DNA of 64,000 bases, taken from assembly GCA_017538105.1 (NCBI GenBank), contig JAFYJN010000035.1, forward strand, positions 96,271 through 160,270. The letters are read 5' to 3'. Position numbers and translations under genes: made by a program. This document shows positions 6,810-22,725 of this stretch, one piece after another. The stretch's first letter is position 1, and each line of letters begins with the position of its first letter. The notes below the pieces were generated by a model that did no database searches, was not told the DNA's origin, and was given only the letters and a program-made list of their open reading frames with translations. This DNA comes from Prevotella sp. Its GTDB lineage: Bacteria; Bacteroidota; Bacteroidia; Bacteroidales; Bacteroidaceae.

Positions 6810-6841
6810 TTTGTTGTTTTCAAGGAAAAAGGCTATTTTTG
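6810..6841 (+). promoter_or_regulatory. promoter of the NRPS gene
   Basis: TTTG at 6810-6813, a 20-base spacer, then TATTTTTG at 6834-6841: a textbook Bacteroidota sigma-ABfr promoter. It implies that translation begins at 6862, not at the in-frame ATG at 6811. Confidence 0.75.
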
Positions 6842-6861
6842 CAAGAAAATCTTCTTCTTTC

Positions 6862-9800: not shown

Positions 9801-10917
9801 GAGAGCCAGAGAGGTGGACCTTGCCATTGATTATGCCATGATTTTCCGCTGGAGCGATGTCCGTTCATTGTCGGCGCACCTCGTCGGGACATCCGACAAC
9901 AATCCCGGGCTATGGCATCTCCCACATGAATTTCGCCCTGTGCCCATCTCACCATTGAGCCAGAAGCGCGAGAGCCCCATTGGTGACCTACTCATCACTG
10001 GCTGTACAGGCTTCTTGGGTAGCCACATACTGGTCGAGTACCTTATCCATGAGCAAGGCACCGCCTATTGTCTTGTCAGGGGTGAGGACGAGGTCTCCGC
10101 GCGTAGAAGACTGCAAAATATTGTGGGAGACATCCTCGGACATGCTCAAGCAGAGCGTTTTGCCCCACGGATCGTCATCGTTCTAGGCGACCTTTGTCGC
10201 GAAGACACGTTAGAAATGTTTGATGACATTCATGTGGATACGCTTATCCATTGCGCTGCCAATGTGAGCCATTACGCCCCAATGAAATTGTTGTGGGACG
10301 TGAATGTGGAAGGTACGCGTCGCGTTCTGCGCCACTGCCTTCGCCATGGCACCCACCTTCTTCATCTATCCACCTTAAGTGTAGGCGGCATCGACGGAGA
10401 AGGCCATTTCCTTCAATTGAAGGAACAGGAGTATTACAAAAATCAATCGTTTGTCGACCCATACGATTACACCAAGTTCATGGCTGAGCACATCGTGTTG
10501 GAAGCCATTGCGCATGAACACCTTTCCGCCACCATTGTACGTCCTGGGTTTCTGGTGTCACCAATCGGTCGTGCCGACCTGATTCCCAACCGCACCGACC
10601 TGTTAGCCACTATTGACCATCTCTCAGAAGAGTTGGGCATATTGCCCCGGCGGATAGCGTCCATACCCATCATTTACAGTCCTGTTGACGAAGCAGCGCG
10701 CGAAGTACTGTCATTTGCCATGGAAGATAACGGCGGCATCATCCGTCACCTTCACACGGTAGAGGAGAAAACAGCAGGCGAGATGATGCTTTCGCGTCAT
10801 CCCGCCCTGAGGTGGGTGGAAGATTCCGTCTTCCAAAGTGCCTTGAAGTCGTTAAATGAGAAAGAACGTTACGCTGTCATTGCTGGCATTATCGGCACCA
10901 TACCGCCAACACACTGA
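6862..10917 (+). CDS. single-module nonribosomal peptide synthetase, C-A-T-R
   Basis: About 1351 residues. An N-terminal condensation domain carries HHLIGDG at 137-143. The adenylation domain has YTSGTTGKPKG near 586-596, NTYGPTE at 714-720, and NYNGKVDRK with the A10 Lys at 918. A thiolation domain has GGTS with the phosphopantetheine Ser at 972. The terminal reductase has TGCTGFLG at 1046-1053 and the Y1201-x3-K1205 pair. The R domain implies NAD(P)H-dependent release of an aldehyde or alcohol. The hand-read specificity residues are D632, A633, E636, C675, C696, G698, T715, V723, N724 and K918. The acidic third position is reminiscent of Lys-type codes. No partner module, phosphopantetheinyl transferase or exporter is adjacent. 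The leading C domain suggests an N-acylated amino aldehyde. Confidence 0.93.
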   Translation: MTNEASISSTYPLLPSQEGIYYAWMSRIDATCWNLPICMTYGREIDRTRLQEALHAIIAQRATLRLQLTVDEKGQPRQYIDPTLTIDVPCREMSESAALDYCQHHFVRPFVPFSKQPLCRFEILSTPEHHYLLFDLHHLIGDGVTISHAFLSVDLPHAYDCQPLDKDDYGMLDAALSQEALYGTARYLADRHYFHERFRHHPFTPLCGIPANPWGRYLRSSSFMDRKALDLWCKNNGISPNVLFSAAFSLVLSRLSGERETAFLTLFHGRSDRRLRNAWGMFVSTLPQLVSHHPSDTIGSLLLQNRQEQFRALRHSSYPLTHFCNNLHHTPTVTFGFQSEQIPESIVLDGHLYPGVQLQYAESRNELSCMIYVHGSTYEIRVDCSSAWHDADYLKRFAQAVSTIVEQLTTLPQTTPLDHLSLVNPSEQQFLTALGTGKSLAWPEEETLTRLIHRQVLRSPSATAIHDIHGFMSYEQLWQASGHLSCALHCRHIGHGDIVAISLPHDRRFLVAAIAVLRSGASYLPLDPNHPPLRHQQLLSDSCARLLIDQTMFATLAAVDVSSTTTPHEESTIDYSRVGDMAYLMYTSGTTGKPKGVMVSHHSLCHFSYVTAHLWHLSDKSRISCHAPFTFDASVEDLYPVLTCGGTVFLPDEAILHDLHALRRYLAHHHITGGCYTPQFAHMLTEGHPLDVDYLCVGGDRMTHVPETSGRLLNTYGPTEFTVNATYHDVNKSSTANIPIGRPLPNLHAFVMDYAGHLLPRGMVGELCLGGPQMAMGYWKRVEETAQQFAYFPSVGMSLYHTGDYTRWNDDGLLEYIGRRDDQLELNGQRIEPSEIEHVLCQHHEIIDACLSVQISGGQGQLCAHYVCREHPEKSRPYENNDPLEGDLKLFLRQRLPSYMIPQLWQRVERLPLNYNGKVDRKHLPPIVKRPHPVITATCNDIEMRLLSLFRQVLNRDDIDVTDSFFDMGGTSLSAMELVSRAREVDLAIDYAMIFRWSDVRSLSAHLVGTSDNNPGLWHLPHEFRPVPISPLSQKRESPIGDLLITGCTGFLGSHILVEYLIHEQGTAYCLVRGEDEVSARRRLQNIVGDILGHAQAERFAPRIVIVLGDLCREDTLEMFDDIHVDTLIHCAANVSHYAPMKLLWDVNVEGTRRVLRHCLRHGTHLLHLSTLSVGGIDGEGHFLQLKEQEYYKNQSFVDPYDYTKFMAEHIVLEAIAHEHLSATIVRPGFLVSPIGRADLIPNRTDLLATIDHLSEELGILPRRIASIPIIYSPVDEAAREVLSFAMEDNGGIIRHLHTVEEKTAGEMMLSRHPALRWVEDSVFQSALKSLNEKERYAVIAGIIGTIPPTH

Positions 10918-10919
10918 TT

Positions 10920-12392
10920 CTATTTCTTCCGTCGGAATACGAGAAGCAACAAAAGGAGCAACAGTATTGCAGCAGCCGCAATTGCCCATGGTTCTTTCCA
11001 GATAGGTGTCTCGGTCGTGGCAGCAGCATTTCCCTCCACCGTAAGCGAGTCCACCGCATCGGGGCCTATAGATTGAGCCTTGATGGAATCGTTCATGTTC
11101 GGTTCCGGTGTTTGGTATTCCACCTTATATATATTAACAGCATTACCTCCACCATTTTTTCGTCCTTGCGAGGTTACGATAACCCATTGTCCATCGCGAG
11201 AAATATCCAGTCCAACGGGATAAGAGTCGCAGGGTATGCTGGCGATTGTCTGCATGGTTCGCGTATCAACCACACACACTTCCGATGCGGCGTTACAAGC
11301 AGCGAAGACGAAGTTGCCCGATGGTGATATTTCTATGGTTCGCGCTCCACCCCCCACTTTACATTCCTGCCAACCCGTCACCGTTCCCAGTTTGCCATTG
11401 ATGTTGCGTGCCGCATCAAGGAATTTCTCCAGCGGTATGCGCTGCACATATCCCGCATTGTTGATGCTCAAGTACAGATATCCGTTTTTGATAACCAAGT
11501 GACGGACGTTCGCCCTCATGCCCTGGAGGCGGCCCATGTATTCCATTTTCTGCATGTCGAAGACAGCGATACCGCCAGCCCCGCCCATGCAGCACACAAG
11601 CAGATACTTGTCATCGGGCGTGAAAACCGTGCCTCGCAGGCAATAACCGCTATTGATGTCGCGATTGATGGCCACCGACTTGCTGAAATTCAGGGGCAGC
11701 ACATAGTCCACGACCAGCACTCTCTCATGATGCCAGTCGCGTGGGTTGTTGCTGTCGACGCGAATCAGTCCCACCGTATTGTTACCCCAGTGTGTGACCG
11801 CCACATATTTACCGTCATGTGAGGCCGCGATCATCTTCGGCAGTGGTCCCGTTTCCATGAGCAGAATAATTTCATCAGTTTCCGTGTCGATGACCGCCAA
11901 TGCCGATGGGTCTTGCGCATTGATGTCAAAGGTTCGACGGTAGTACGGAGCCCAAAAATACCGACCATTGTGCGTGAAGCAACCCTCCACCGGTTTTCCC
12001 CCAAACGTGTTGAGATTGTTGGTGTAATGTGTAAACGGATACAAGTCAGACGGTTTACTCCACAGCGAATCTTTCGACGGGTCACACTCATGGTGGATGG
12101 TTTTCAGTTTTTTGTTCGTTCCCATCTCGAAGACCACGGTAGCACATCCCTCGAGCGAGTTGACATAGTATTTCTTGCCATTGGGATGGATGTTCACAGA
12201 CTTCGGCGAATTGATGTCCGGTTCGTGCGTGACGGCATCGCCCATGAAGTTCTGCCGTTTATCAACATTAGTGATGGTAAGAGCCCCATTGGAGGCTTTT
12301 ACCTCTGTACCCAATTTGGAATGGCGAAACACTTGCGCAGAGGCGGCCATTACAACGCACCACACAATGGTTAAGAAAAAGGTTCTTTTCAT
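10920..12392 (-). CDS. secreted YncE-like beta-propeller protein with C-terminal membrane anchor
   Basis: 490 residues. A signal peptide (MKRTFFLTIVWCVVMAASAQ) is followed by repeated blade motifs of the SPSGNFVFAA, DTRTMQTIA and SRDGQWVIVTS kind, typical of seven-bladed YncE/lactonase-like propellers. A C-terminal hydrophobic helix and an RRKK tail (about 467-490) would anchor it with the propeller in the periplasm. It is convergent with the NRPS, with only two bases between the stop codons and no terminator. It has its own -7 box. The ligand is unknown; a link to the NRPS product is only a possibility suggested by position. Confidence 0.82.
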   Translation of the reverse strand: MKRTFFLTIVWCVVMAASAQVFRHSKLGTEVKASNGALTITNVDKRQNFMGDAVTHEPDINSPKSVNIHPNGKKYYVNSLEGCATVVFEMGTNKKLKTIHHECDPSKDSLWSKPSDLYPFTHYTNNLNTFGGKPVEGCFTHNGRYFWAPYYRRTFDINAQDPSALAVIDTETDEIILLMETGPLPKMIAASHDGKYVAVTHWGNNTVGLIRVDSNNPRDWHHERVLVVDYVLPLNFSKSVAINRDINSGYCLRGTVFTPDDKYLLVCCMGGAGGIAVFDMQKMEYMGRLQGMRANVRHLVIKNGYLYLSINNAGYVQRIPLEKFLDAARNINGKLGTVTGWQECKVGGGARTIEISPSGNFVFAACNAASEVCVVDTRTMQTIASIPCDSYPVGLDISRDGQWVIVTSQGRKNGGGNAVNIYKVEYQTPEPNMNDSIKAQSIGPDAVDSLTVEGNAAATTETPIWKEPWAIAAAAILLLLLLLLVFRRKK

Positions 12393-12421
12393 ATAAGAGG
12401 TTGCTTTAAGTTTTATGGATG

Positions 12422-12429
12422 CAAAGGTA
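12422..12429 (-). promoter_or_regulatory. -7 box of the beta-propeller gene
   Basis: Minus strand TACCTTTG (TAnnTTTG), about 30 bases before the start codon. Confidence 0.55.
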
Positions 12430-12489
12430 AGGAAAAATATAAAATTAAAAGATTATAAAATTAAAAGAAAAAAAATAAACAGGGCAAAA

Positions 12490-12622
12490 ACGTGAACAAA
12501 GGATCAAAGTTTATTATAGACAAAAGGACTTTTTTGACATATGGACAAAAGGGACTTTATTTAGACACATGAACAAAGGGACATAATTTTATGACATAGG
12601 GATAAAAGGGACTTTTTTAACC
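12490..12622. repeat. degenerate tandem repeat, about 5 copies of a 24-29 base unit
   Basis: Successive copies resemble GGACAAAAGGGACTTTATTT followed by a GACA(T)AT spacer. Copies are seen near 12493, 12519, 12543, 12570 and 12600, with several substitutions and small indels. The stretch from 12430 to 12764 holds no convincing reading frame. The repeat lies between the propeller promoter and the IS relic. Confidence 0.6.
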
Positions 12623-12760
12623 AATAAGGAATACTTTTATGTTCTACATTTTTAAGGTAAAAGATGTGAAATAATATTTATTTTTTACACTTTATGGATG
12701 ATTCATGCTTAAAACTCAATAAAAGTGAGTAAATTTACAACCTTTAAAACTAATTATCAT

Positions 12761-13070
12761 AATTCACTACTGTCCGGAGAAATTTGGCCATAGATAAAGT
12801 TGACCATCATTCTCGACATATTTGTTAGACTTGTTACGTTTGAAAATTTCGTTAATAGGCTCCTTCTCGAAGAGGACAAGTCCAATCGACTGAGCAAAGA
12901 TATATAGATCACAATCGATATGAAACATCTTTTTTGCTATAACAAGCAGCAAGTAGTCACACACTGCAATCCAGATTTGTGTGTAGACAGCGTTGCGCGA
13001 TGTTCCATAAAACGATTTGATATGCAGACAACTTTATCTATGGCCAAATTTCTCCGGACAGTAGTGGATT
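12761..13070. mobile_element. IS relic: inverted 38-bp arms around a transposase 3' fragment
   Basis: Bases 12765-12802 and 13029-13066 are perfect reverse complements (38 of 38). With one mismatch the match extends outward to 12761 and 13070. The 226 bases between the arms encode the C-terminal end of a transposase on the minus strand. This looks like an internally deleted IS, reduced to its ends in a MITE-like way. No clear target-site duplication is seen. It may alternatively be an inverted duplication of one IS end. The right arm abuts the truncated dehydrogenase gene. Confidence 0.7.
12767..13027 (-). pseudogene. C-terminal fragment of a DDE (IS4-type) transposase
   Basis: About 87 codons are open. 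The segment reads LHIKSFYGTSRNAVYTQ, then IWIAVCDYLLLVIAKKM, then FAQSIGLVLFEKEPI. This is the usual end of Bacteroidota IS4-group transposases (family recall: IK-FYGTS-NAV-TQIWIA). The N-terminal catalytic part is missing. The fragment starts directly at the inner edge of the right inverted arm, and its last codons lie inside the left arm. It is a dead remnant. Confidence 0.7.
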
Positions 13071-13338
13071 TACATATAAAAGTAATATTAATGATATCAG
13101 GAATACGAAAATAGCTGTAATTCATAAATATCTTCATGAAAAGATAAAAACAGTAGATTGTTATGACCCAAATGTCAACATAGAACAAGTAAGGTCTATT
13201 TATGGTATTAACATGATTCCATCAGAGTCATTGGAAATTCTGTCTTATGACATTATCATCAAGGCTGTTAGCCATGATATATTCGAAACATTAGAATTAG
13301 GAAACGTTAATGTTATAGAGTTGGTTGATTTTCTATGA
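13063..13338 (+). pseudogene. 3' end of a UDP-sugar (nucleotide-sugar) dehydrogenase gene
   Basis: About 90 codons ending at the TGA at 13336-13338. The reading starts GFTYKSNINDIRNTKIAVI and continues with VDCYDPNVN, YGINMIP, YDIIIKAVSHDIF and a C-terminal VIELVDFL. This is the C-terminal domain of the UDP-GlcNAc/ManNAc/Glc 6-dehydrogenase family (WbpA, WecC, TviB), normally about 420 residues, so roughly the first 330 are lost. The homology stops exactly at the right arm of the IS relic. Its stop codon overlaps the next gene's start as ATGA, so the downstream operon was originally coupled to a sugar-nucleotide gene. Confidence 0.8.
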
Positions 13339-14171
13339 TACAACAAATTAACAACAAAAGTGTCAGGGCCGAAGCAGTCCAAAATAGCGACATTCGGTAT
13401 TTGGAAGATTATTTCAAGCATCATGGGAAATTTCCTATGTTTAGGCAGGTGTTGATTGAGACGAGGACAGATTGCAACAATAAATGCCCTTTCTGTCCTC
13501 ATGCATTCAACAAAAAACCACTTGGCATAATGACATGGGAATGCTATACTACCATCATAGACCAGTTATGTACCATCAATTATAATGGAAGAGTCGCGTT
13601 GATGCTTTCCAATGAGCCTTTGCTAGAAGAACGGCTTGAAAAAATGATAACCTATGCCAAGAATAAATCGCAACGATTGTTTTTGGATATAACTACCAAT
13701 GGACGCTTGCTAACTTTAGAAAAGTTAGACCATTTATTTGATCTTGGATTAGACAATATCAACATCAACGATTATAGAGGAGATCGCGACGCATTTCCTG
13801 ATAAATGGTCGTCATACCTTGTCCCCATCTATGAGGCATATAATAACAATCCCAAGGTATGCTTTCAAAAGAGAAGGCTTGATGAGATATTACCCAATTA
13901 TGCTGGTAATATACCACAATCCTTTGACAAATCTCGTTTTGGTTTCTGTAATTATCCTTTTAGAAAACTGACCATAGCTTTTAATGGGGATGTCCTATTA
14001 TGTTGTGACGATTTCATGTATGACACATGTTTCGGTAACGTTATGGAAAGCTCTCTAATTGATTGTTGGAATCATCCGGCTATGAATGATGTTAGATTTT
14101 CTCTTCTCAAGGACAAGAGAACTGGTCTTTGTGAAAGATGTAATGATTTTCAAAACTATAAAGCATACTGA
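13335..14171 (+). CDS. radical SAM protein with SPASM-type C-terminus
   Basis: 278 residues. The radical SAM iron-sulfur motif CNNKCPFC has Cys47, Cys51 and Cys54. A Cys-rich C-terminal region (FCNYPF, LLCCDDFMYDTC, GLCERC) suggests auxiliary clusters of the SPASM or twitch type. Such enzymes modify peptides or sugars by radical chemistry. The start overlaps the stop of the dehydrogenase remnant (ATGA), which supports the start choice. It is first of six tightly packed genes. Substrate unknown; no precursor-peptide gene is visible nearby, which argues somewhat for a sugar or small-molecule substrate. Confidence 0.87.
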   Translation: MIQQINNKSVRAEAVQNSDIRYLEDYFKHHGKFPMFRQVLIETRTDCNNKCPFCPHAFNKKPLGIMTWECYTTIIDQLCTINYNGRVALMLSNEPLLEERLEKMITYAKNKSQRLFLDITTNGRLLTLEKLDHLFDLGLDNININDYRGDRDAFPDKWSSYLVPIYEAYNNNPKVCFQKRRLDEILPNYAGNIPQSFDKSRFGFCNYPFRKLTIAFNGDVLLCCDDFMYDTCFGNVMESSLIDCWNHPAMNDVRFSLLKDKRTGLCERCNDFQNYKAY

Positions 14172-14172
14172 A

Positions 14173-15288
14173 ATGGTGCTGAACGATGAACAATTTGCAG
14201 CATTCTCTATGGAGATAGCCACATTTGGAAATATACCAATACTCAGTAGGTATTGCGGAATCGGTTGTGTATTCTGCAAAGTTCACACTGACTCATATCT
14301 TGGCCATTATCCTAAAATACCGCCAATAGATGTGGAGGATTTGCTTAAAGGTTTCAAGTATGTCAACCCTAAAGTGAACTATGTACGTTTAGGTGCAGGA
14401 GTATTGGTTGCTCCTCATACCGATCCGTTCCTGCATCCTATGATATATGATTTTATAAAAATCACCTCTGATTATTTCCCAACTAAAAAAGTGACAACCG
14501 TCACGACGGGAGCTTATATAAAGGAGGAAAAATTGGATTATTTAAACAGCATACCCAATTATGGCATAGACCTTTCTCTAATAACGATGCAGGAACAACG
14601 TGAAGCAATTATTCCAAGATCTGAGAGGGAGAGAACTATGTATTTGTTAAAACATGCTCCACTGAACAAATGTACTCTTATGTTTACAGGCAATTTGGAC
14701 GAAATAAAGAAGGATCTCGAATTGTTATACAACATAGGAGTAGACAAAAAGGTAAGACAAATACTTGTTAGGAGGTTGGAGCATACGGCAATTTCACAAC
14801 CCACTTTAAAAAGAATGTCTCAGGCGAGCATTGACCATTATGAAGAATGTATAACATGGGTAAAAAGGAACTATCCTGATGTCGTTTTTACAGTACCAAT
14901 TCTTAAGGATGTTTTTAGAGGTGGCAATAATGAGTATTTTATTGATGCAGACGAAAGGATAGAGAACCAAAAAGCAATAATAGGTGGACTTCCATCAAAT
15001 ACTATTGTCAATCTAATCTGTCCATTGTCTGGATATGCATATTTCACAAACGCATTTAAAGATTATAAGAACGTCAAGACAAATCTCATTTATAATCATC
15101 TATATGGGGGATCTGTTTCTGTGGCAGGACTACTGAATCATGGTGATATACGAGAGCAATTTAAGCCAGAAAAGAATGACATTATGATTATGCCAAACGA
15201 AATGTACAACTCTGAGGGAAAAGACCTATTAGGTGAGAAAATAGAAGAATTGGAAAGATATTATCACGCTAAAATAATTCTTGCATGA
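14173..15288 (+). CDS. radical SAM protein with DUF512-like C-terminal region
   Basis: 371 residues from the ATG at 14173, one base after the previous stop. A longer frame begins inside the upstream gene and is less likely. The cluster motif is CGIGCVFC (Cys28, Cys32, Cys35). The C-terminal part, with YNHLYGGSVSVAGLLNHGDI and a later IMPNEMYNSEGKDLL, recalls the end of DUF512 radical SAM proteins (N-FFG-SVTVAGLLTG-DI). The PDZ-like N-terminal part of those proteins is absent. Function of the family is unknown. It overlaps the next gene by four bases. Confidence 0.83.
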   Translation: MVLNDEQFAAFSMEIATFGNIPILSRYCGIGCVFCKVHTDSYLGHYPKIPPIDVEDLLKGFKYVNPKVNYVRLGAGVLVAPHTDPFLHPMIYDFIKITSDYFPTKKVTTVTTGAYIKEEKLDYLNSIPNYGIDLSLITMQEQREAIIPRSERERTMYLLKHAPLNKCTLMFTGNLDEIKKDLELLYNIGVDKKVRQILVRRLEHTAISQPTLKRMSQASIDHYEECITWVKRNYPDVVFTVPILKDVFRGGNNEYFIDADERIENQKAIIGGLPSNTIVNLICPLSGYAYFTNAFKDYKNVKTNLIYNHLYGGSVSVAGLLNHGDIREQFKPEKNDIMIMPNEMYNSEGKDLLGEKIEELERYYHAKIILA

Positions 15289-16160
15289 TGGAAACAATTG
15301 GTTGGGATAAAATACGATTCCTCGTTAGTAATGGTTGTAACTACAAATGTCCTTTCTGTCATAATGAAGGACAGGTAAAATCATTTGCCATTTCCAAAAT
15401 GTCTTTTGATAATGTCAGAATTATCATCGACGTTATTAAGGATGTAAATATCTCTGAAATATGTTTCAGTGGGGGTGAACCATTCTTGAATGAAGACATA
15501 GTACGGATGATAGAATATGCTTGCAATGAAACGGTCTGCGATGTCTGTTGCGCAAGCAATCTATCATTGATTACAGACGACCAGATAAAAGCTCTTTCTG
15601 AAACAAGAGTTAAATTCAACATCCAATTCCCATACATTGACAAACATCTCTTCAAATCAAGTACAGGAAATGGTAACATCAATGATATACTATACAAGAT
15701 TGAACAATTGAGAAAAGCCGGAATACAGATAGGCCTCAATACTGTCATTCAAAATCAGAACATGGACAATATAAAAGAAATGGTTATGTTTGCCCTTAAA
15801 GAAGAAATACCTTTGAAATTACTACCCCAAATAGGACTTGAAGGAAGTGAACATTTCAAGGATTTTGTATACCCTATACTCAAAGAGTATGCCATTGACT
15901 ATAAAGATAAAAAATCTGGGGCAATAAGGTGGACATTGAAATCAAACAACCATCAAACAATCGTGCTATATATAGATGCCCCTTGTTTCAATAAAAACAT
16001 CCATAATTGCAGGAATTATGGGGAATTACGGATATTACCAAACATGAGTGCTCAAACGTGCATCTTGAAGGATGCATCTGTTCTTTTGGAAACAAATAAA
16101 GGTAAAGACGTGTTATTAGAACAATTTTTGACTTTATGGAAAAACTTCAAGCATTGTTAA
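15285..16160 (+). CDS. MoaA-like radical SAM protein
   Basis: 291 residues. DKIRFLVSNGCNYKCPFCHN near the N-terminus carries Cys18, Cys22 and Cys25. It is followed by the FSGGEPFL SAM-binding segment. The C-terminal CRNYGELRILPNMSAQTCIL recalls the second cluster and R-I-DG-L-PCL region of MoaA (GTP 3',8-cyclase). No moaC or other molybdopterin gene is near, so a dedicated nucleotide or sugar reaction is more likely than cofactor synthesis. The start overlaps the previous gene by four bases (ATGA). Confidence 0.85.
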   Translation: MMETIGWDKIRFLVSNGCNYKCPFCHNEGQVKSFAISKMSFDNVRIIIDVIKDVNISEICFSGGEPFLNEDIVRMIEYACNETVCDVCCASNLSLITDDQIKALSETRVKFNIQFPYIDKHLFKSSTGNGNINDILYKIEQLRKAGIQIGLNTVIQNQNMDNIKEMVMFALKEEIPLKLLPQIGLEGSEHFKDFVYPILKEYAIDYKDKKSGAIRWTLKSNNHQTIVLYIDAPCFNKNIHNCRNYGELRILPNMSAQTCILKDASVLLETNKGKDVLLEQFLTLWKNFKHC

Positions 16161-16771
16161 GAGAGTACAGACGCTCACATCCCGAAGACTTGAATATGGC
16201 TCCTTGGAGTTCTCAATATTGCCAAATGAATTTCCCAAAATATTGGGAGATTGTCTATTGCATATTAAAAAAAATGAATAGACGACACCAAATCATTGAG
16301 ATAGGCTGTGGATTAGGAGACATAACCTCTATTCTTGTTTATTTGGGTTTCAAGGACATCATCTCATTTGAAAAGGATAAGGAAATTGCACGTAGAGCAC
16401 AAAGGTCAATAAGCGAATTATTCCAAAAAGACAATATTATCATCAATGGAGAATATCCTGGCTGCAACGAATATGATTGCGATATCCTTATCATGGTAAA
16501 CTGTGCTTATGTCACACTTGCATCATCAAAAGAAGAATACCTGAATTTGTTGAAATCATATTACCGTCATGCAAAAGAGCCAAAGTTCTTTATTTTGGAG
16601 GTTATAGACAGTTCATATAAAAACAAAGATGACGAATTCCCCTCGTATATTCGACTTGATCGTAATGACATAGAAGTTCTGTTTCCAAATACTTCCATCC
16701 ATTCGTGGGTGACATATAAATATCCAGAAAACAGAAGAAGTAAAACTCTTTATTTAATTGAGAAAAAATGA
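16136..16771 (+). CDS. SAM-dependent methyltransferase-like protein
   Basis: 211 residues. The Rossmann motif I segment IIEIGCGLGDITSILVYLG is followed by FEKDKEIARRA, the acidic residue that would bind the SAM ribose. The rest is weakly conserved. It overlaps the upstream radical SAM gene by 25 bases and the next gene by four. The class is clear; the acceptor (sugar, lipid or nucleotide) is not. Codon use is AT-rich, like the rest of the island. Confidence 0.82.
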   Translation: MEKLQALLREYRRSHPEDLNMAPWSSQYCQMNFPKYWEIVYCILKKMNRRHQIIEIGCGLGDITSILVYLGFKDIISFEKDKEIARRAQRSISELFQKDNIIINGEYPGCNEYDCDILIMVNCAYVTLASSKEEYLNLLKSYYRHAKEPKFFILEVIDSSYKNKDDEFPSYIRLDRNDIEVLFPNTSIHSWVTYKYPENRRSKTLYLIEKK

Positions 16772-18525
16772 ACGTTACAATAGTTACATCAGAAATTGGA
16801 CAAAATGGTGGTGGAATGTCATTGTCCTGCTCCCATCTTTATGAGATTATCTCTGCAGAACACATTGTTAGAGTATTACGCTCAGATGAATTCAATATTG
16901 TTACTGCAAAAGGTGGATATTCAACAGAGCTTACAAAAGGCATCCAATGTGAGTACAAGCTGAAGGAAGATCTAGTCGAATATGAAAATACTGACATCGT
17001 GATTGGTTTTGGAGCAAAGTTCAATGGTTATTATTCTTCTTTGTTGGCAGAGAGGCTAGGCGTACCTTTCATTCTATGTTTGAGAGGTACTGATGTCAAC
17101 ATCTCCAAATGGTCTGTATCGGATAGTTGTTTGCTTGGAGAAGCAAGTCGAAAAGCATATAAAATCGTATGTCTATCCAACGAGATGATTTTGAATGTAT
17201 GCAGCATATTACCTGGTGCGGCTAATAAATGTATCATCATTCCAAATGAAATCTATGACGGAAGACCAAACGTCATTTTAAAAAACATTCCTGACTCAAT
17301 CATCCTTGGAACTGCAGCAAGCCATTTAAACGAAAAAAAAGGTGTGGCGAACCTCCTGTTTATGATTAAAGAATTCAAGTCATTATCTGATATCCCAATT
17401 CAATTACAACTTGTAGGAAGCATTGATGATGACTTGCTCAAAGAATATATAGCAATATCCCAAAAGGTTGGCGTATTTGACAATGTATCTTTTCTGGGTT
17501 ACAAAACAAGAGAAGCATTACAGGAAACCATGAAAAAATGGGACTTCTATATACAAGGCTCTGTATGTGAGGGACATCCGAATTCCGTTATTGAAAGTCT
17601 TTTATGCGGTACTGGATTCATTAGCTCTAAAACAGGATATATCGCCGAACTTTTAGAAAAGGATTTTCCTGTTCTTTTCTTCGACTCATGGAGTCCCCCA
17701 AAAATGGCCCGGCATATGGTCAAATTAATAAAAACAGATAATTTGAGTGTTTTGTATTCGAAAGCGTTTGACAAGCTATATTCTTCTTGCAATAGAAAAC
17801 TCGTCATTAAACAATGGAAAAGCTTATTGATGAAGCCGGATACCGTTTATCCTGCACCTATACTGGAAAACATCATATCATTGGGATTACATGATGTTCA
17901 AGGAGAAGTCCATGACAGTATCACAACGCCAAAATCTGTTTTTTCTAAATTCGTTGATTTCATCTATTGTAATGGCATGAGGCTATGTTCAATGAGAGAT
18001 TATTTAGCCTTGAACAAAGAACAACGAAGAAATATGATTGTCTGTACATTTGACGATGGCTATATGAGTCTTGTTAAAACAGCTCTTCCCATTCTTTCAA
18101 AATACAATTTCACAGCAACGGTCTTCATATGTACAGGCTTGATTGGTAAAGACAATTCCTGGAACAATAAAGATGGGAAAATAAGAGAACACTTAAACGA
18201 AGAAGGTATCAGCAGTTTATTAAACTCAAATTGGGAAATAGCCTCTCATGGTGTTACTCATAGAAATCTTCTGAAATTGACAGATAAAGAGGTTGAAGAA
18301 GAACTGTTCTTATCAAAGAAATATATAGATAGCCATTACGGAGAAACCGATACATATGCTTTCCCGTATGGTGCCTATAATCCCTACATACAAAGTTGTG
18401 TGAAAAAGTATTATAAATATGCATTTTCTGTAACTCAGGGTGGAACATCTATTATAGCCGATGCTCTACAAATACGAAGATATTCTATTTCAGATATATA
18501 CAAAATGATTGAATCCGCCAAATGA
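16768..18525 (+). CDS. fusion of a GT4-type glycosyltransferase and a NodB polysaccharide deacetylase
   Basis: 585 residues. The N-terminal 350 residues resemble a GT-B retaining glycosyltransferase (TSEIGQNGGGMSLSC start; SVCEGHPNSVIESLLCGT donor-site motif near 270-290). The C-terminal part from about 405 is a NodB homology domain. It has TFDDGY with Asp429-Asp430, SHGVTH with His494 and His498 as likely metal ligands, and FPYGAYN. The pairing suggests transfer of an N-acetylamino sugar and its de-N-acetylation by one polypeptide, as inferred from the families. No signal peptide or membrane segment is evident, so it probably acts in the cytoplasm. Overlaps both neighbours by ATGA. Confidence 0.87.
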   Translation: MNVTIVTSEIGQNGGGMSLSCSHLYEIISAEHIVRVLRSDEFNIVTAKGGYSTELTKGIQCEYKLKEDLVEYENTDIVIGFGAKFNGYYSSLLAERLGVPFILCLRGTDVNISKWSVSDSCLLGEASRKAYKIVCLSNEMILNVCSILPGAANKCIIIPNEIYDGRPNVILKNIPDSIILGTAASHLNEKKGVANLLFMIKEFKSLSDIPIQLQLVGSIDDDLLKEYIAISQKVGVFDNVSFLGYKTREALQETMKKWDFYIQGSVCEGHPNSVIESLLCGTGFISSKTGYIAELLEKDFPVLFFDSWSPPKMARHMVKLIKTDNLSVLYSKAFDKLYSSCNRKLVIKQWKSLLMKPDTVYPAPILENIISLGLHDVQGEVHDSITTPKSVFSKFVDFIYCNGMRLCSMRDYLALNKEQRRNMIVCTFDDGYMSLVKTALPILSKYNFTATVFICTGLIGKDNSWNNKDGKIREHLNEEGISSLLNSNWEIASHGVTHRNLLKLTDKEVEEELFLSKKYIDSHYGETDTYAFPYGAYNPYIQSCVKKYYKYAFSVTQGGTSIIADALQIRRYSISDIYKMIESAK

Positions 18526-19580
18526 AGAAAATACTTGGAATATTCAGAGGATTCCCTGGTTTGGGAAGAGTCGTATCAGGTGTGTCAATCCTTGAAACAC
18601 TAAATAAAGACTATAATTGCCAAACTGAGATGATATCATATCTTCAAGGTAAAAAATATCTTGAACTAAAAGGATATGATTGTGAGCACGATGTCGTTTC
18701 AGCCGATTATTGCTCCGTAGGACTCTTGCCCACCAATAGGATGGGAGCCTATATTCATAAAAAAATAGTTGAATTTTGTCCAGATGCTATTTTAGTTGAT
18801 GGTGAGCCGCTAATTCTTCAATCGCTTAATATATCTCACCCATCAATTAAGATTATTTCATTACTTAATCCCTCTGATGTTGACAACCCGCAAAATGACA
18901 AGGAGGCTATGGATTTTTTCAATGCTATATACGCTCTTTCTGATTTAGCAATAATCCATGGACTAAGAACGGTTACTCCACAATATGGTTACAAGAAATA
19001 CATTTCCGTCAACACAATTATTCGGAATGAAATATTGAAAATCAATAATAGCCCAAACAATAATATATACTGTGTGCTCGGAGGTGGAACTGTGAATGTC
19101 GAGAGAAGTTTTGTTGATTCCACTATCAGAATTGCAGAGTTGAGTAAGTCTGTTGCATCACGACTTACAGATTACAATATGCATATCATCTGTTCGAGCC
19201 AAAACATATATGAAACTGTCAATTCTAAGATTGGCCCTAATGTTATAATACACAAAGATGTGTTGAAAGCTTCAGATTATTATTCTGACGCTTGTTTGAT
19301 AATAACAAGATCTGGCCGTAATACCCTTAGTGAAATTGCATATCTGTCAATCCCGACAATATCTTTCGTAACTGGTTGTATGTACAGGAAAGAAGAACAA
19401 CAACACAATGCAAACAGCATAAATCAGATGTGTTCATACTTAGCAGATACATCCATCGGCATTGATGATTTTACGAAACTATGCAGGTCTGCTTTAAATG
19501 CAGAGCGAAAGCCCAGTTCTTTCGAAATAGGTAATGCAAAAGCCATAGAAAGTATTCTTGATCTACTAAGATTGTCATAA
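18522..19580 (+). CDS. MurG/GT28-like glycosyltransferase
   Basis: 352 residues of GT-B type. The N-terminal glycine-rich FRGFPGLGRVVSGVSI segment and the C-terminal LIITRSGRNTLSEIAYLSIP donor-binding motif, followed by a Gln-rich QQHNAN, resemble MurG and related UDP-sugar transferases. It is last of the six-gene operon and overlaps the upstream fusion gene by four bases. The acceptor is unknown. Five bases downstream begins a broken metallophosphoesterase frame. Confidence 0.85.
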   Translation: MKKILGIFRGFPGLGRVVSGVSILETLNKDYNCQTEMISYLQGKKYLELKGYDCEHDVVSADYCSVGLLPTNRMGAYIHKKIVEFCPDAILVDGEPLILQSLNISHPSIKIISLLNPSDVDNPQNDKEAMDFFNAIYALSDLAIIHGLRTVTPQYGYKKYISVNTIIRNEILKINNSPNNNIYCVLGGGTVNVERSFVDSTIRIAELSKSVASRLTDYNMHIICSSQNIYETVNSKIGPNVIIHKDVLKASDYYSDACLIITRSGRNTLSEIAYLSIPTISFVTGCMYRKEEQQHNANSINQMCSYLADTSIGIDDFTKLCRSALNAERKPSSFEIGNAKAIESILDLLRLS

Positions 19581-19585
19581 TTATC

Positions 19586-19657
19586 ATGGAATCAAAAAGA
19601 ATAAGGATTGTCCATATGTCTGATTTACATCTGACATCTGATCTCATTATATACTAG
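19586..19657 (+). pseudogene. 5' fragment of a metallophosphoesterase gene
   Basis: A 23-codon frame reading MESKRIRIVHMSDLHLTSD then a stop. RIVHMSDLHL is the first metal-binding motif (D-x-H) of calcineurin-like phosphoesterases, which are normally over 200 residues. Spacing of five bases after the glycosyltransferase stop suggests it was the next gene of the operon before a deletion or rearrangement. From 19658 to the gdhA promoter nothing recognisable remains. Confidence 0.65.
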
Positions 19658-19851
19658 GCAGCGAACAAAGAATGGTCATAGGTTGGGAAACGCAGAAAAG
19701 AGAGCGGGATGACATTCATAACGTCTTTGAATGATAGTAGAAAAAGATGGTTGTGTGCGGACACGAAAACGATTTCAAAAAACAAAAAAGGTCTATTTTT
19801 GTGTAATTTCTAACTTTTTTACATGAAATTTGAAAAATTTCTTTCAATTTG

Positions 19852-19882
19852 TTTGTGAATTTGGAAATTGTGTGTAATTTTG
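19852..19882 (+). promoter_or_regulatory. promoter of gdhA
   Basis: TTTG at 19852-19855, a 19-base spacer, then TAATTTTG at 19875-19882. The leader is about 45 bases. Confidence 0.7.
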
Positions 19883-19935
19883 CAACCACAAACAATTACA
19901 TAGGCATAATAAACAAATTTTAAAGTAAAAAGATT

Positions 19936-21270
19936 ATGAATGCAGCAAAAGTCATTGAGAACTTGAAACAGCGTTTTCCGAACGAGCCCGAGTACATCCA
20001 GGCTGTTAGCCAAGTGTTGGGAACTATCGAAGAAGAGTACAACAAACATCCCGAATTCGAGAAGCAGAACCTGATTGAGCGTTTGTGCATCCCCGACAGG
20101 TTGGTACAGTTCCGAGTTACTTGGACTGACGACAAGGGAAACGTACAGACCAACATGGGTTACCGCATCCAACATAACAATGCCATTGGTCCGTATAAAG
20201 GCGGCATCCGCTATCACGCTTCCGTGAACCTGTCGATCCTGAAGTTCCTTGCTTTTGAGCAGACTTTCAAGAACTCACTGACGACCCTTCCGATGGGTGG
20301 TGCCAAGGGCGGTTCTGACTTCTCGCCTCGTGGCAAATCGAATGGCGAGGTGATGCGTTTCTGCCAAGCTTTCATGACTGAGTTGTACCGTCACATCGGC
20401 CCTGACGAGGACGTGCCCGCCGGTGACATCGGTGTAGGTGGTCGTGAGGTTGCTTATATGTTCGGCATGTACAAGAAACTGACCCACCAGTGGAGTGGCG
20501 TTTTGACTGGCAAGGGACAAGAGTTTGGCGGTTCACGTATCCGTCCCGAAGCTACGGGTTATGGCAATGTGTATTTCCTCTGCAATATGTTGGCCACCCG
20601 TGGCGAGTCCATCAAGGGCAAGACCATTTTGGTGTCTGGTGCCGGCAACGTTGCACAATATACAATTGAGAAATGTATCGAGTTGGGTGGCAAGGTTGTT
20701 ACCGTGAGCGACTCCGACGGTTATGTTTATGACCCCGACGGCATCGACCGTGAGAAACTGGACTTCATCATGGAACTGAAGAACGTGGAGCGCGGTCGTA
20801 TCAGTGAATATGCAAAAGAATACGGTCTGAAGTATGTTCCCGGCAAGAAGCCTTGGTTCGAGAAAGCCGACATCGCCCTACCTTCCGCTACTCAGAACGA
20901 AATCAACGAAGAAGCAGCCAAGGCTCTTGTTGCCAACGGCGTGATTGCAGTGAGCGAAGGTGCCAACATGCCTACTACTCCTGAGGCTATCAAGGTGTTC
21001 CAGGATGCCAAGATTCTATACTCTCCGGGTAAGGCAGCCAATGCCGGTGGTGTTGCCGTGTCGGGTCTTGAGATGAGCCAGAACTCTGAGCGTCTGCGTT
21101 GGAGCCGTGAGGAAGTGGACCAGAAACTGCATGACATCATGAACGACATCCACGCCAACTGCGTGAAGTATGGTACTGAGGCCGACGGTTACATCAACTA
21201 CGTGAAAGGTGCCAATGTAGCTGGTTTCCTGAAAGTGGCCAAGGCAATGATGGCACAAGGAATCCTTTAG
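19936..21270 (+). CDS. gdhA: NADP-type glutamate dehydrogenase
   Basis: 444 residues, the length of hexameric bacterial glutamate dehydrogenases, which make glutamate from 2-oxoglutarate and ammonium. The substrate-site motif LPMGGAKGGSDFSPRGKS is intact. The dinucleotide-binding GAGNVAQY loop and the C-terminal PGKAANAGGVAVSGLEMSQN motif are also present. It is monocistronic, with its own promoter and a strong terminator. It marks the return to chromosomal-type codon use after the AT-rich island. Confidence 0.97.
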   Translation: MNAAKVIENLKQRFPNEPEYIQAVSQVLGTIEEEYNKHPEFEKQNLIERLCIPDRLVQFRVTWTDDKGNVQTNMGYRIQHNNAIGPYKGGIRYHASVNLSILKFLAFEQTFKNSLTTLPMGGAKGGSDFSPRGKSNGEVMRFCQAFMTELYRHIGPDEDVPAGDIGVGGREVAYMFGMYKKLTHQWSGVLTGKGQEFGGSRIRPEATGYGNVYFLCNMLATRGESIKGKTILVSGAGNVAQYTIEKCIELGGKVVTVSDSDGYVYDPDGIDREKLDFIMELKNVERGRISEYAKEYGLKYVPGKKPWFEKADIALPSATQNEINEEAAKALVANGVIAVSEGANMPTTPEAIKVFQDAKILYSPGKAANAGGVAVSGLEMSQNSERLRWSREEVDQKLHDIMNDIHANCVKYGTEADGYINYVKGANVAGFLKVAKAMMAQGIL

Positions 21271-21376
21271 AAGATTAAAAGATTTTAAAATTAAATAATT
21301 AAAAAATAATCTTTGAAAATCCAAGGATTTCACAAATAGAAAATTAAGAGAAAAAACGTAATAAGTTTTCGATATG

Positions 21377-21412
21377 GACTGCCGCACGTATAGCGTGTGG
21401 CAGTCTTTTTTT
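21377..21412 (+). terminator. terminator after gdhA
   Basis: GACTGCC / GGCAGTC arms, extended by a nearly paired GCACG / CGTGT, close a short loop and are followed by seven T. Confidence 0.85.
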
Positions 21413-21429
21413 AGAAATGTGGGAAATTA

Positions 21430-21461
21430 TTTGGAAATGAGGAGAGGAATGGTTATTTTTG
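21430..21461 (+). promoter_or_regulatory. promoter of the CarboxypepD_reg-like protein gene
   Basis: TTTG at 21430-21433, a 20-base spacer, and TATTTTTG at 21454-21461. Confidence 0.7.
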
Positions 21462-21504
21462 TAGCGTTAGTGGCAAAGAAAATGTAGTTTCAATAGGGAG
21501 AACG

Positions 21505-22725
21505 ATGAAGCAGTATTGTTTTGTGTTTTTGTTGCTTTTGGCCAGTTTGAATGTTTTTAGCCAGAAGTTCGTCATCAGCGGGACGGTGACTAACGCGCGT
21601 ACGGGCGCCGTTATTCCCCAAGCTACTGTTGGTGCTGAGGGAGAACGTACGTCTGTCATCACCAACGACGAGGGGTATTTCACGTTGAAGTTGGACAAGA
21701 CACCATCTGCACTCATTGTATCCCATCTGGGTTATGAGAGGCTACGTCATCCCATTTCCTCGTCTTCGACGACTCCCCTTTCCATCCGTTTAAAGCCCAC
21801 ATCGATAGAATTACAGGAAGTGGTGGTGTGGACTGAGAATCCCCGTGACCTGGTCTATCTGGCCCTTAGCAAAGTGCCAGAGAATTACAGCACCAAGCCA
21901 GTATTGTATAAGTGTTTCTACCGTGAGGCCGCCATGAAGCGGAAGCATTTCATCTATGTGGCTGAAGGTGTGGTGGACATGTACAAGACTTCGTACAGGC
22001 AAGATATGACGCATGATAAGGTAGCCATCAAGAAAGGCCGTCGTCTGCTCAGTCCCAAGGAGAGCGACACGTTAGGAGTGAAGGTGGCCGGCGGTCCGGT
22101 GATGCCATTATATTTCGATCTTGTGAAGAACACCGACTTCTTGTTAAACGAGGAAGACTTAGCCAATTACGAATTAAAAATGGACGGTGTTGAGGTGATT
22201 GACGACCGCGTGCAGTATGTGGTGAGGCTTTCGCCACGTGTCTGGACCCCATGGGCTTTGTTTAACGGCAAGTTGTATATCGACCGAACAAACCTATCAG
22301 TCAGTCGTGCGGAGTTGTCGTTGGACATGAGAGACACGCCACGTGCCACCAGTTATATGTTAAAGAAGAAACCTCAGGGTGTGCGTTTCAAGCCAAAGGA
22401 GTTTTCTATCCTTGTAGATTACAAGCAAGATGGCGGCAAGACGCATATCAGTTATCTGCGCAGCACCTACCGTTTCAATTGCGACTGGAAGCGCAGGTTT
22501 TTGGCCACAAGTTTTTCGGTGACTTGCGAGATGGTGGTCACCGACCGCCAGGAAGAGAGTTTCGAGTCGATACGCGGTCGCGACTCGTTCGACTCACATG
22601 ATGCTTTTTATGACAAAGTGGATTATTTCCTTGACAACAAGTTCTGGGAGGGCTACAACATCATTGAGCCTACAGAAACTTTGGACAAGGCGATAGACAA
22701 ACTGGTGAAGAAATATAAGAGATAG
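21505..22725 (+). CDS. secreted carboxypeptidase-regulatory-like (CarboxypepD_reg-like) domain protein
   Basis: 406 residues. A signal peptide (MKQYCFVFLLLLASLNVFSQ) is followed by a beta-sandwich of the CarboxypepD_reg-like type: SGTVTNARTGAVIPQATV, TNDEGYFTLKL and VSHLGYE, about residues 24-100. This domain also begins many TonB-dependent receptors. Here no plug or barrel follows; instead about 300 residues of DUF5686-like or uncharacterised beta-rich sequence remain. It is probably periplasmic or associated with the outer membrane. Function unknown. Confidence 0.8.
   Translation: MKQYCFVFLLLLASLNVFSQKFVISGTVTNARTGAVIPQATVGAEGERTSVITNDEGYFTLKLDKTPSALIVSHLGYERLRHPISSSSTTPLSIRLKPTSIELQEVVVWTENPRDLVYLALSKVPENYSTKPVLYKCFYREAAMKRKHFIYVAEGVVDMYKTSYRQDMTHDKVAIKKGRRLLSPKESDTLGVKVAGGPVMPLYFDLVKNTDFLLNEEDLANYELKMDGVEVIDDRVQYVVRLSPRVWTPWALFNGKLYIDRTNLSVSRAELSLDMRDTPRATSYMLKKKPQGVRFKPKEFSILVDYKQDGGKTHISYLRSTYRFNCDWKRRFLATSFSVTCEMVVTDRQEESFESIRGRDSFDSHDAFYDKVDYFLDNKFWEGYNIIEPTETLDKAIDKLVKKYKR

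Follow-up and report, generated by a model that had tools for sequence, protein, structure and literature searches.

In a Prevotella sp. contig, six closely packed genes (A to F) make up what is best read as a horizontally moved operon, present in a handful of related species; low GC content in every host and mobile or anti-phage genes near three related loci support its carriage by mobile DNA. We tentatively propose, with rather limited confidence, that this acquired operon makes a soluble, heavily tailored, C-methylated amino-sugar glycoside, modified much as aminoglycosides are though in the absence of cyclitol genes. The genes and their arrangement, their conservation, the mobile surroundings, the homology classes and the conserved cofactor residues are observations, whereas we infer each reaction, the sequence of the steps and the identity of acceptor and product.

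An AT-rich operon and its borders

Within the window, the whole stretch of 64,000 nucleotides analysed here, six intact frames on the forward strand span 13335–19580 with successive gaps of +1, −4, −25, −4 and −4 nt (Table 1). The island has a GC content of 0.354, compared with a mean of 0.482 outside it (432 overlapping 6.6-kb windows in 100-nt steps, sd 0.019, minimum 0.449), so that the six overlapping or abutting genes in an AT-rich stretch described by the first-pass annotation are upheld by frame coordinates and composition alike.

Table 1. Features of the island and its borders (window coordinates)
Feature	Position	Strand	Basis
Insertion-element remnant	12765..13066	.	38-bp perfect terminal inverted repeats
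TviB-type nucleotide-sugar dehydrogenase, C-terminal remnant	13066..13338	+	Homology to L004 gene
A, radical SAM with twitch domain, BtrN-like	13335..14171	+	Pfam Radical_SAM and SPASM, BtrN match
B, radical SAM with C-terminal DUF512	14173..15288	+	Pfam, csDUF512 and Bacteroidota DUF512 profile matches
C, MoaA-like radical SAM, extra conserved C-terminal cysteines	15285..16160	+	Pfam Radical_SAM
D, SAM-dependent methyltransferase	16136..16771	+	Three Pfam matches, all under their cut-offs
E, fusion of a GT4 glycosyltransferase and a NodB-type deacetylase	16768..18525	+	Pfam GT4 and polysaccharide deacetylase
F, GT28/MurG-like glycosyltransferase	18522..19580	+	Pfam GT28 C-terminal
23-codon frame, metallophosphoesterase N-terminus-like (weak)	19586..19657	+	Position and sequence
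Return to host sequence: glutamate dehydrogenase gene with its upstream region	19744..21270	+	Similarity to G019

Broken genes had been proposed at both edges, which holds for the left one. There the last ~90 residues of a dehydrogenase remain (37.8% over 90 aa to the gene of relative L004, E 1.5e-16; a family hit of 36.3 bits in the scan of its own genome, under the cut-off), and the truncation point at 13066 is the right end of the insertion-element remnant, the inverted-repeat arms of which (12765–12802 and 13029–13066) match at 100% over 38 bp. The fragment shares an ATGA overlap with the start of A, likewise in L004. The right edge offers a short phosphoesterase-like stub with a weak match: against metallophosphoesterase the best hit covers merely 14 aa (E 0.25), and the L007 protein gave no match there. 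A metallophosphoesterase gene follows F in four relatives, and that the stub is the start of this gene is a weak proposal, for which its location counts no less than its sequence. From 19744 onwards the window again resembles the sibling genome G019 (88.6%), and the right limit of the island is at 19657–19744; the closest sibling, with a 99% identical gdh, carries different genes upstream of gdh. Loci L040–L042 entered the comparison solely through a BLAST of the flanks. No Rfam match was obtained at 12000–20500 and no tRNA at 10000–22000. Although contamination of the source assembly is put at 5.5%, the island is embedded in a contig of 160 kb and is flanked by host genes on both sides.

Relatives, rarity and mobility context

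When about 85,000 genomes, each standing for a species, were scanned by pattern, five close relatives of B came up, all in Bacteroidales MAGs. The order A to F is kept in four of them, with two inserted genes in L004, while in the fifth the cluster is split over contigs and a different radical SAM gene stands at the place of A. The conserved co-occurrence in Bacteroidota for which the first-pass annotation had suggested a search is thus found, and the case that the genes never co-occur elsewhere does not apply. The cluster is nevertheless rare, being present in one of 393 genomes of the order, its own. At 1e-3, B is matched in three of 296 genomes of the phylum, namely its own, G239 (E 1.6e-4, 99 residues) and G122 (E 9.4e-4, 53 residues), the latter two being set aside as generic matches covering part of the radical SAM core; E at 1e-50 is found solely in its own genome (1/247), and C, D and F have only distant relatives. 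For A at 1e-15 six of 247 genomes, own included, give a match, and in the three of the five others that were inspected (G095, G272, G129) no A-to-F-like cluster was seen. No relative of B was detected in the plasmids, phages or viral contigs searched, nor one of A in the viral contigs searched. With 78–81% identity to the relatives B is the most conserved protein (partners 38–74%), and all six genes are under purifying selection with respect to the relatives (pN 0.13–0.43, pS 0.74–0.90).

Horizontal transfer, as had been assumed, is backed by a GC content of the cluster genes of 0.33–0.41 in every host and by integrases, relaxases or anti-phage genes near the loci of three relatives, outer neighbours including AbiD, TmtA and a RhuM-type gene (PDC-S05). 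Closer in, TviB- and TviC-like nucleotide-sugar genes flank the cluster in relatives. The host genome encodes three full nucleotide-sugar dehydrogenases. In relative G729, a GT2 gene and a further glycosyltransferase-like gene, the latter recognized by eye and with no Pfam hit, stand after F.

Such neighbours might instead belong to a surface-glycan module that makes or decorates a capsule, O-antigen or protein-glycan repeat, assembly and export being provided by other host loci, which we regard as possible but doubtful. Capsule and O-antigen loci typically contain TviB/TviC-like genes, and besides the additional transferase genes of G729 a distant homologue of A lies, as read by eye, in the LPS-type locus L061. 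However, mobile and defence genes occupy the outer flanks, and among the frames listed for L004–L008, L048–L050 and L052 (read by eye and in part profile-scanned, apart from short frames and L051; some contigs end early) neither a flippase or polymerase nor an initiating transferase or exporter was recognized. Nor do the two glycosyltransferases of the window show obvious membrane segments: the highest 19-residue hydropathy mean among the six proteins is 1.64, from which we conclude that A to F are devoid of an obvious one.

Radical SAM enzymes A, B and C

A had been described as SPASM-type; while Pfam does find the SPASM domain, the protein is a BtrN-like twitch protein and not a generic SPASM enzyme. 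Its profile match to BtrN, the radical SAM dehydrogenase of butirosin biosynthesis, extends over residues 35–272 of 278 with the catalytic and twitch region (E 1.8e-28; next non-BtrN PDB match 9e-4). Seven cysteines, three of the radical SAM cluster (C47, C51, C54) and four of the auxiliary cluster (C205, C223, C266, C269), align with those of BtrN and are invariant in 5/5 sequences. A is therewith a candidate alcohol-to-ketone dehydrogenase, as judged from sequence.

B was taken to start at 14173 and not at the first-listed 14086, because in each of the five relatives the frame begins at the corresponding residue. The DUF512-like character claimed at first pass is borne out by a Pfam match above cut-off (PF04459, 32.7 bits, cut-off 25, only model positions 111–197 of 202), by csDUF512 (9CG1, E 0.004) and by a profile built from six DUF512 proteins of Bacteroidota (hhalign probability 88.1%, E 3e-6, 72 columns), the match being limited to the C-terminal part of the model, about 75–90 residues. 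What had been missed is the role of this domain, for which cobalamin binding was demonstrated in 2024 (PMC11659888), and which makes B a candidate B12-dependent methylase. The CX3CX2C cysteines C28, C32 and C35 are invariant (6/6), as is L320, aligned with L366, the lower axial leucine to cobalamin in csDUF512. In the three solved structures of the DUF512 class the aromatic residue after the third cysteine (F95, Y47 and Y23) sits between cluster and cobalamin, and a threonine (T323 in csDUF512) is hydrogen-bonded to the DMB tail of the cofactor (PMC11659888). In B, these positions are K36 and C283, again invariant in 6/6, and the cofactor site may therefore differ. In our reading the DMB-contacting threonine and the post-cysteine aromatic are common to the solved structures, though not defining for class 2. 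B is hence best described as a candidate class 2 Cbl-dependent radical SAM methylase in which two of the three cofactor-site residues checked deviate.

DUF512 occurs in seven of 198 genomes of the phylum, own included. The other six proteins align mutually over their length, and an N-terminal PDZ match, in one case just under the cut-off, was present in all three of them that were scanned. The radical SAM half of B matches PF04055; in three scanned Bacteroidota DUF512 proteins PF19238 fits that half best. The host genome encodes two proteins with a B12-binding domain.

The MoaA resemblance noted for C stands, the identity as MoaA does not: with 100.4, 82.6 and 88.6 bits C stays below the cut-offs of all three NCBIfam equivalogs (325.25, 284.05 and 231, respectively), and MoaA proper was ruled out.

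SPASM/twitch enzymes are common as maturases of RiPPs, and a RiPP-type route, with a small peptide altered by several radical SAM enzymes and then glycosylated, has to be considered, as one relative's cluster (L007) contains as many as five radical SAM genes, the maximum among clusters, and maturase models are among the weak matches of A and C. As no model reaches its cut-off among those listed, the 25 best out of 29 for A and out of 68 for C, as a cyclitol dehydrogenase heads the structural matches of A and as the six genes are packed so tightly that there is no space for a precursor gene between them, we consider this improbable.

Similarly improbable is viperin-like phage defence by a radical-made nucleotide. 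PADLOC pVip models, which come with no cut-off, match C at 55.4 bits and also hit A and another two radical SAM proteins from L007, D and the phosphoesterase weakly match defence methyltransferase/nuclease models (20–27 bits), and the anti-phage genes AbiD, TmtA and PDC-S05 are near in relatives; but C scores 46.1 compared with a cut-off of 180 for NF038283, MoaA models and structures fit it better, and a nucleotide kinase was not recognized. A generic viperin was rejected, since the pVip matches track the shared radical SAM core and the scores are far under the viperin cut-off.

Methyltransferase and glycosyltransferases

D is kept as the SAM methyltransferase proposed at first pass on its three sub-cut-off Pfam matches; an assignment as Erm/KsgA was discarded, the weak matches being confined to residues about 38–103 around the SAM-binding motif. 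The fusion of GT4 and NodB domains in E is confirmed by Pfam, with matches to group 1 glycosyltransferase (4.5e-9), the BshA structure 5d00 (1.1e-8) and polysaccharide deacetylases (4e-11). Residues D430, H494 and H498, which presumably form the metal-site motif, are invariant in 5/5. F was correctly called MurG-like.

A proposed pathway and its significance

That the genes direct synthesis of an unusual sugar, glycolipid or nucleoside had been suggested; co-occurrence and TviB/TviC-like neighbours speak for a sugar or glycoside, while direct evidence for lipid or nucleoside was not found. In the tentatively proposed route to an amino-sugar glycoside, TviB/TviC-type enzymes, the genes of which adjoin the cluster in relatives, would provide a UDP-N-acetylaminouronic acid, host dehydrogenases possibly replacing the TviB-type enzyme in the window, where merely a fragment is left. 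E could transfer a GlcNAc-type sugar to an acceptor, its NodB half subsequently taking off the acetyl group, and F may add a second sugar. A would oxidize a sugar or cyclitol hydroxyl to the ketone by radical chemistry, B as cobalamin-dependent radical methylase would C-methylate the product, C might perform a further MoaA-like radical rearrangement or oxidation and D an O- or N-methylation, and the phosphoesterase could trim a phosphate or nucleotide.

About 6000 DUF512 proteins are now considered B12-dependent radical SAM enzymes, and a review of December 2025 poses the question which reactions they catalyse (PMC13331322). The operon provides a testable context for such an enzyme, since B has as companions the dehydrogenase-like A, the transferase/deacetylase fusion E and, in relatives, enzymes for nucleotide sugars; these conserved partners direct the search for the substrate of B towards sugars or glycosides and offer enzymes for reconstitution. 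If bioactive, the product would represent a new compound class of gut Bacteroidales, spread with mobile DNA. An aminoglycoside-like C-methylated amino-sugar compound that serves, on mobile defence islands, as chemical weapon or chemical anti-phage defence with the DUF512 enzyme as key step is an unlikely extension, which if true would for the first time assign a small-molecule role to an enzyme with DUF512.

Comparison with known systems

The first-pass annotation recognized no pathway, and indeed no named pathway matches in full within what was searched, the literature searched holding nothing on this gene combination. Aminoglycoside pathways combine GlcNAc-type transfer with deacetylation. 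The gentamicin and butirosin pathways also share step kinds with those proposed for the cluster, radical dehydrogenation (BtrN) and cobalamin radical C-methylation (GenK; PMC4039129). In contrast to them the cluster is without cyclitol genes, joins a NodB-type deacetylase to the transferase, uses DUF512 instead of an N-terminal B12 domain and resides on Bacteroidales mobile DNA. The scan of the cluster genes revealed neither a cyclitol synthase or aminotransferase nor an exporter or resistance gene; in comparison with BtrN, A has neither a 2-deoxy-scyllo-inosose synthase nor an aminotransferase recognized in its cluster.

C resembles MoaA, the GTP 3',8-cyclase, in its radical SAM core and extra C-terminal cysteines, the spacing of which is, we assume, unlike the MoaA motif. 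BshA (N-acetylglucosaminyl L-malate synthase, as the matched structure is named) and MshA act with a deacetylase partner, whereas E unites GT4 transferase and deacetylase in one chain, reaches 27.5 bits against the 273.7 of the BshA model and has a deacetylase that we take to be NodB-type and not BshB-type. As to TviB and TviC of the Vi antigen, the flanking genes of L004 score highest with these among equivalog models (305 and 350 bits), though under the cut-offs (592 and 760), while the window retains only the TviB-type fragment. With class 2 Cbl-dependent radical SAM enzymes, DUF512 proteins and Mmp10, B shares the CX3CX2C motif, the C-terminal DUF512 and the axial leucine; a PDZ domain was not found in B, pfDUF512 likewise being without one, and B differs by Lys36 for Phe/Tyr, Cys283 for Thr, the partial DUF512 match and its location in a sugar operon.

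Island layout and insertion site

The six tightly packed frames, the strongly AT-rich composition and the broken genes at the edges described in the first-pass annotation are borne out: all frames (A to F) are open, with intergenic gaps of +1, −4, −25, −4 and −4 nt in order, and the GC content of the island is 0.354 compared with a mean of 0.482 and a minimum of 0.449 in 432 overlapping windows of 6.6 kb taken from the rest of the 64 kb. While both edges are shorn, with a TviB-type dehydrogenase fragment on the left and a short stub on the right, whose weak match to a metallophosphoesterase start (E 0.25) is supported by its position, the core is intact, and host sequence starts again at 19744. 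For the assembly, completeness is rated at 99.7% and contamination at 5.5%; the island lies within one contig with host genes on both sides.

Features of the island and its left flank
Feature	Position	Remark
Single-module NRPS	6811-10917	close to island
Beta-propeller protein	10920-12392 (-)	
27-nt repeat array	12522-12618	between beta-propeller gene and insertion-element remnant
Remnant element	12765-13066	38-bp perfect inverted repeats; left edge of island
TviB-type dehydrogenase fragment	13066-13338	begins where remnant element ends
A	13335-14171	frame open
B	14173-15288	frame open
C	15285-16160	frame open
D	16136-16771	frame open
E	16768-18525	frame open
F	18522-19580	frame open
23-codon frame	19586-19657	right edge; metallophosphoesterase-start-like

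In the left flank, the repeat array consists of about 3.6 degenerate copies with consensus AAAAGGGACTTTTTTGACATAGGAA. The beta-propeller protein matches the Lactonase and YNCE-like Pfam models above their cut-offs and the PQQ-associated model TIGR03866 under its cut-off (60.3 bits), with a C-terminal end that is membrane-like by eye. The NRPS comprises condensation, adenylation, carrier and terminal reductase-type domains; such terminal domains release products as aldehydes or alcohols.

In a sibling genome (G019), whose adjacent glutamate dehydrogenase is 99% identical to the window's, neither B nor E was found, and other genes occupy the island's place, which suggests that the site upstream of gdh is variable. 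A WYL regulator lies about 11 kb further up from this place in the sibling.

Enzymes of the cluster

Radical SAM enzyme A matches the profile of the butirosin dehydrogenase BtrN with E 1.8e-28 (next non-BtrN match 9e-4), and 7/7 cluster cysteines align. BtrN, whose auxiliary cluster has four cysteine ligands, converts 2-deoxy-scyllo-inosamine oxidatively into a ketone (excerpt of PMC9012708).

B matches the cobalamin-binding domain DUF512 above the Pfam cut-off and a profile of six Bacteroidota DUF512 proteins with 88% probability, the direct match to the solved structure csDUF512 (PDB 9CG1) being weak (E 0.004). For four DUF512 proteins, both cobalamin binding and the formation of methylcobalamin from cobalamin and SAM were demonstrated (Wang et al., 2024; PMC11659888, in part). 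The axial Leu is retained (L320), Cys283 occupies the position of the Thr contacting DMB, the cobalamin tail, and Lys36 the place of the aromatic residue after the third Cys, the latter two substitutions invariant in 6/6 sequences. Whereas three scanned Bacteroidota DUF512 proteins match PF19238 best in the radical SAM half and DUF512 over its full length, B matches PF04055 and the C-terminal part of DUF512 only; with Cys283 and Lys36, these sequence features indicate that B is probably a divergent member of the DUF512 enzymes.

C is MoaA-like (E 3e-15) with nine invariant cysteines; as MoaA proper it was rejected, falling under all MoaA cut-offs. D is a methyltransferase and F is GT28-like. 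E joins a GT4 part, with BshA among the best structural matches, to a NodB part in which the metal-site residues are invariant.

Distribution, conservation and mobility

B was found in one of 60 relatives searched, in 3/296 genomes of the phylum at 1e-3 (two of them weak partial matches) and in 1/393 genomes of the order at 1e-10, the genuine match being each time the window's own genome. When about 85,000 species genomes were scanned for the pattern, a method that detects close relatives only, 53 matches were obtained, five encoding a relative of B, on contigs labelled Phocaeicola, Bacteroidales (two), Muribaculaceae and Porphyromonadaceae, all MAGs. The conserved neighbourhood in Bacteroidota that the first-pass annotation had proposed to look for is thereby present, as the order A-B-C-D-E-F is kept in four of these loci (L004 to L007). 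L004 has two additional genes: a methyltransferase separates A from B, and a gene looking glycosyltransferase-like by eye, with no Pfam or NCBIfam match, lies between E and F. In the fifth locus, L008, A's place is taken by another radical SAM gene, of 268 aa (L008:2178-2984), so this dehydrogenase-like slot may be open to exchange; the L008 contig stops inside D, and a second short contig, L049, holds E and F of the same genome. Counting extra ones, each locus has three to five radical SAM genes.

Identity to the window's copies is 55-74% for A, 78-81% for B, 51-55% for C, 42-55% for D, 38-53% for E and 49-59% for F, B standing out in conservation. As pS is near saturation (0.74-0.90) and pN is 0.13-0.43, selection has preserved all six genes since the copies separated long ago. 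In every host the GC content of these genes is low (0.33-0.41).

The surroundings were read in L004 to L007, L008 being too short. The L004 cluster directly follows two phage-type integrases, with a RhuM-type gene (PADLOC PDC-S05) and, further on, a Mob_Pre gene on its other side. In L006 a relaxase lies downstream of the cluster and TmtA some 8 kb upstream of it; in L007 the downstream side holds AbiD together with a WYL regulator. Close to the left end of L005 there is a DDE transposase. The integrases, relaxase and Mob_Pre gene support the earlier proposal of horizontal transfer. The cluster is cargo of mobile DNA and often has defence genes nearby, the link to defence being an association.

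Proposed pathway and known systems

Upstream of the cluster, L004, L006, L007 and L008 carry a TviB-type dehydrogenase (the scans covered L004, L006 and L008); an epimerase follows the cluster in L004 (TviC-like) and L005, and a metallophosphoesterase follows F in L004 to L007 (Pfam-scanned in L005 and L007, two of the four). TviB and TviC are nucleotide-sugar enzymes of the Vi antigen. The best-supported reading of A to F is a soluble amino-sugar glycoside pathway, the main rival reading being a surface-glycan module. This glycoside pathway would start with nucleotide-sugar supply; E would transfer and deacetylate the sugar, F would perform a second transfer, A a radical oxidation, B a radical C-methylation, C a further radical step and D a simple methylation.

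The individual enzyme kinds are already known; what appears new is the gene combination, the mobile distribution and the context for the DUF512 enzyme, and a published description of this combination was not found in open-access full texts (subscription papers being outside the scope). Because the cluster has no recognised cyclitol synthase or aminotransferase, it is not classed among the aminoglycoside clusters. As aminoglycosides can block phage infection (PMC9239200, in part), a chemical defence role of the product is conceivable. The step types proposed for A to F are similar to those of aminoglycoside tailoring, in which the C-methylase GenK is a radical SAM enzyme dependent on cobalamin (excerpt of PMC4039129).
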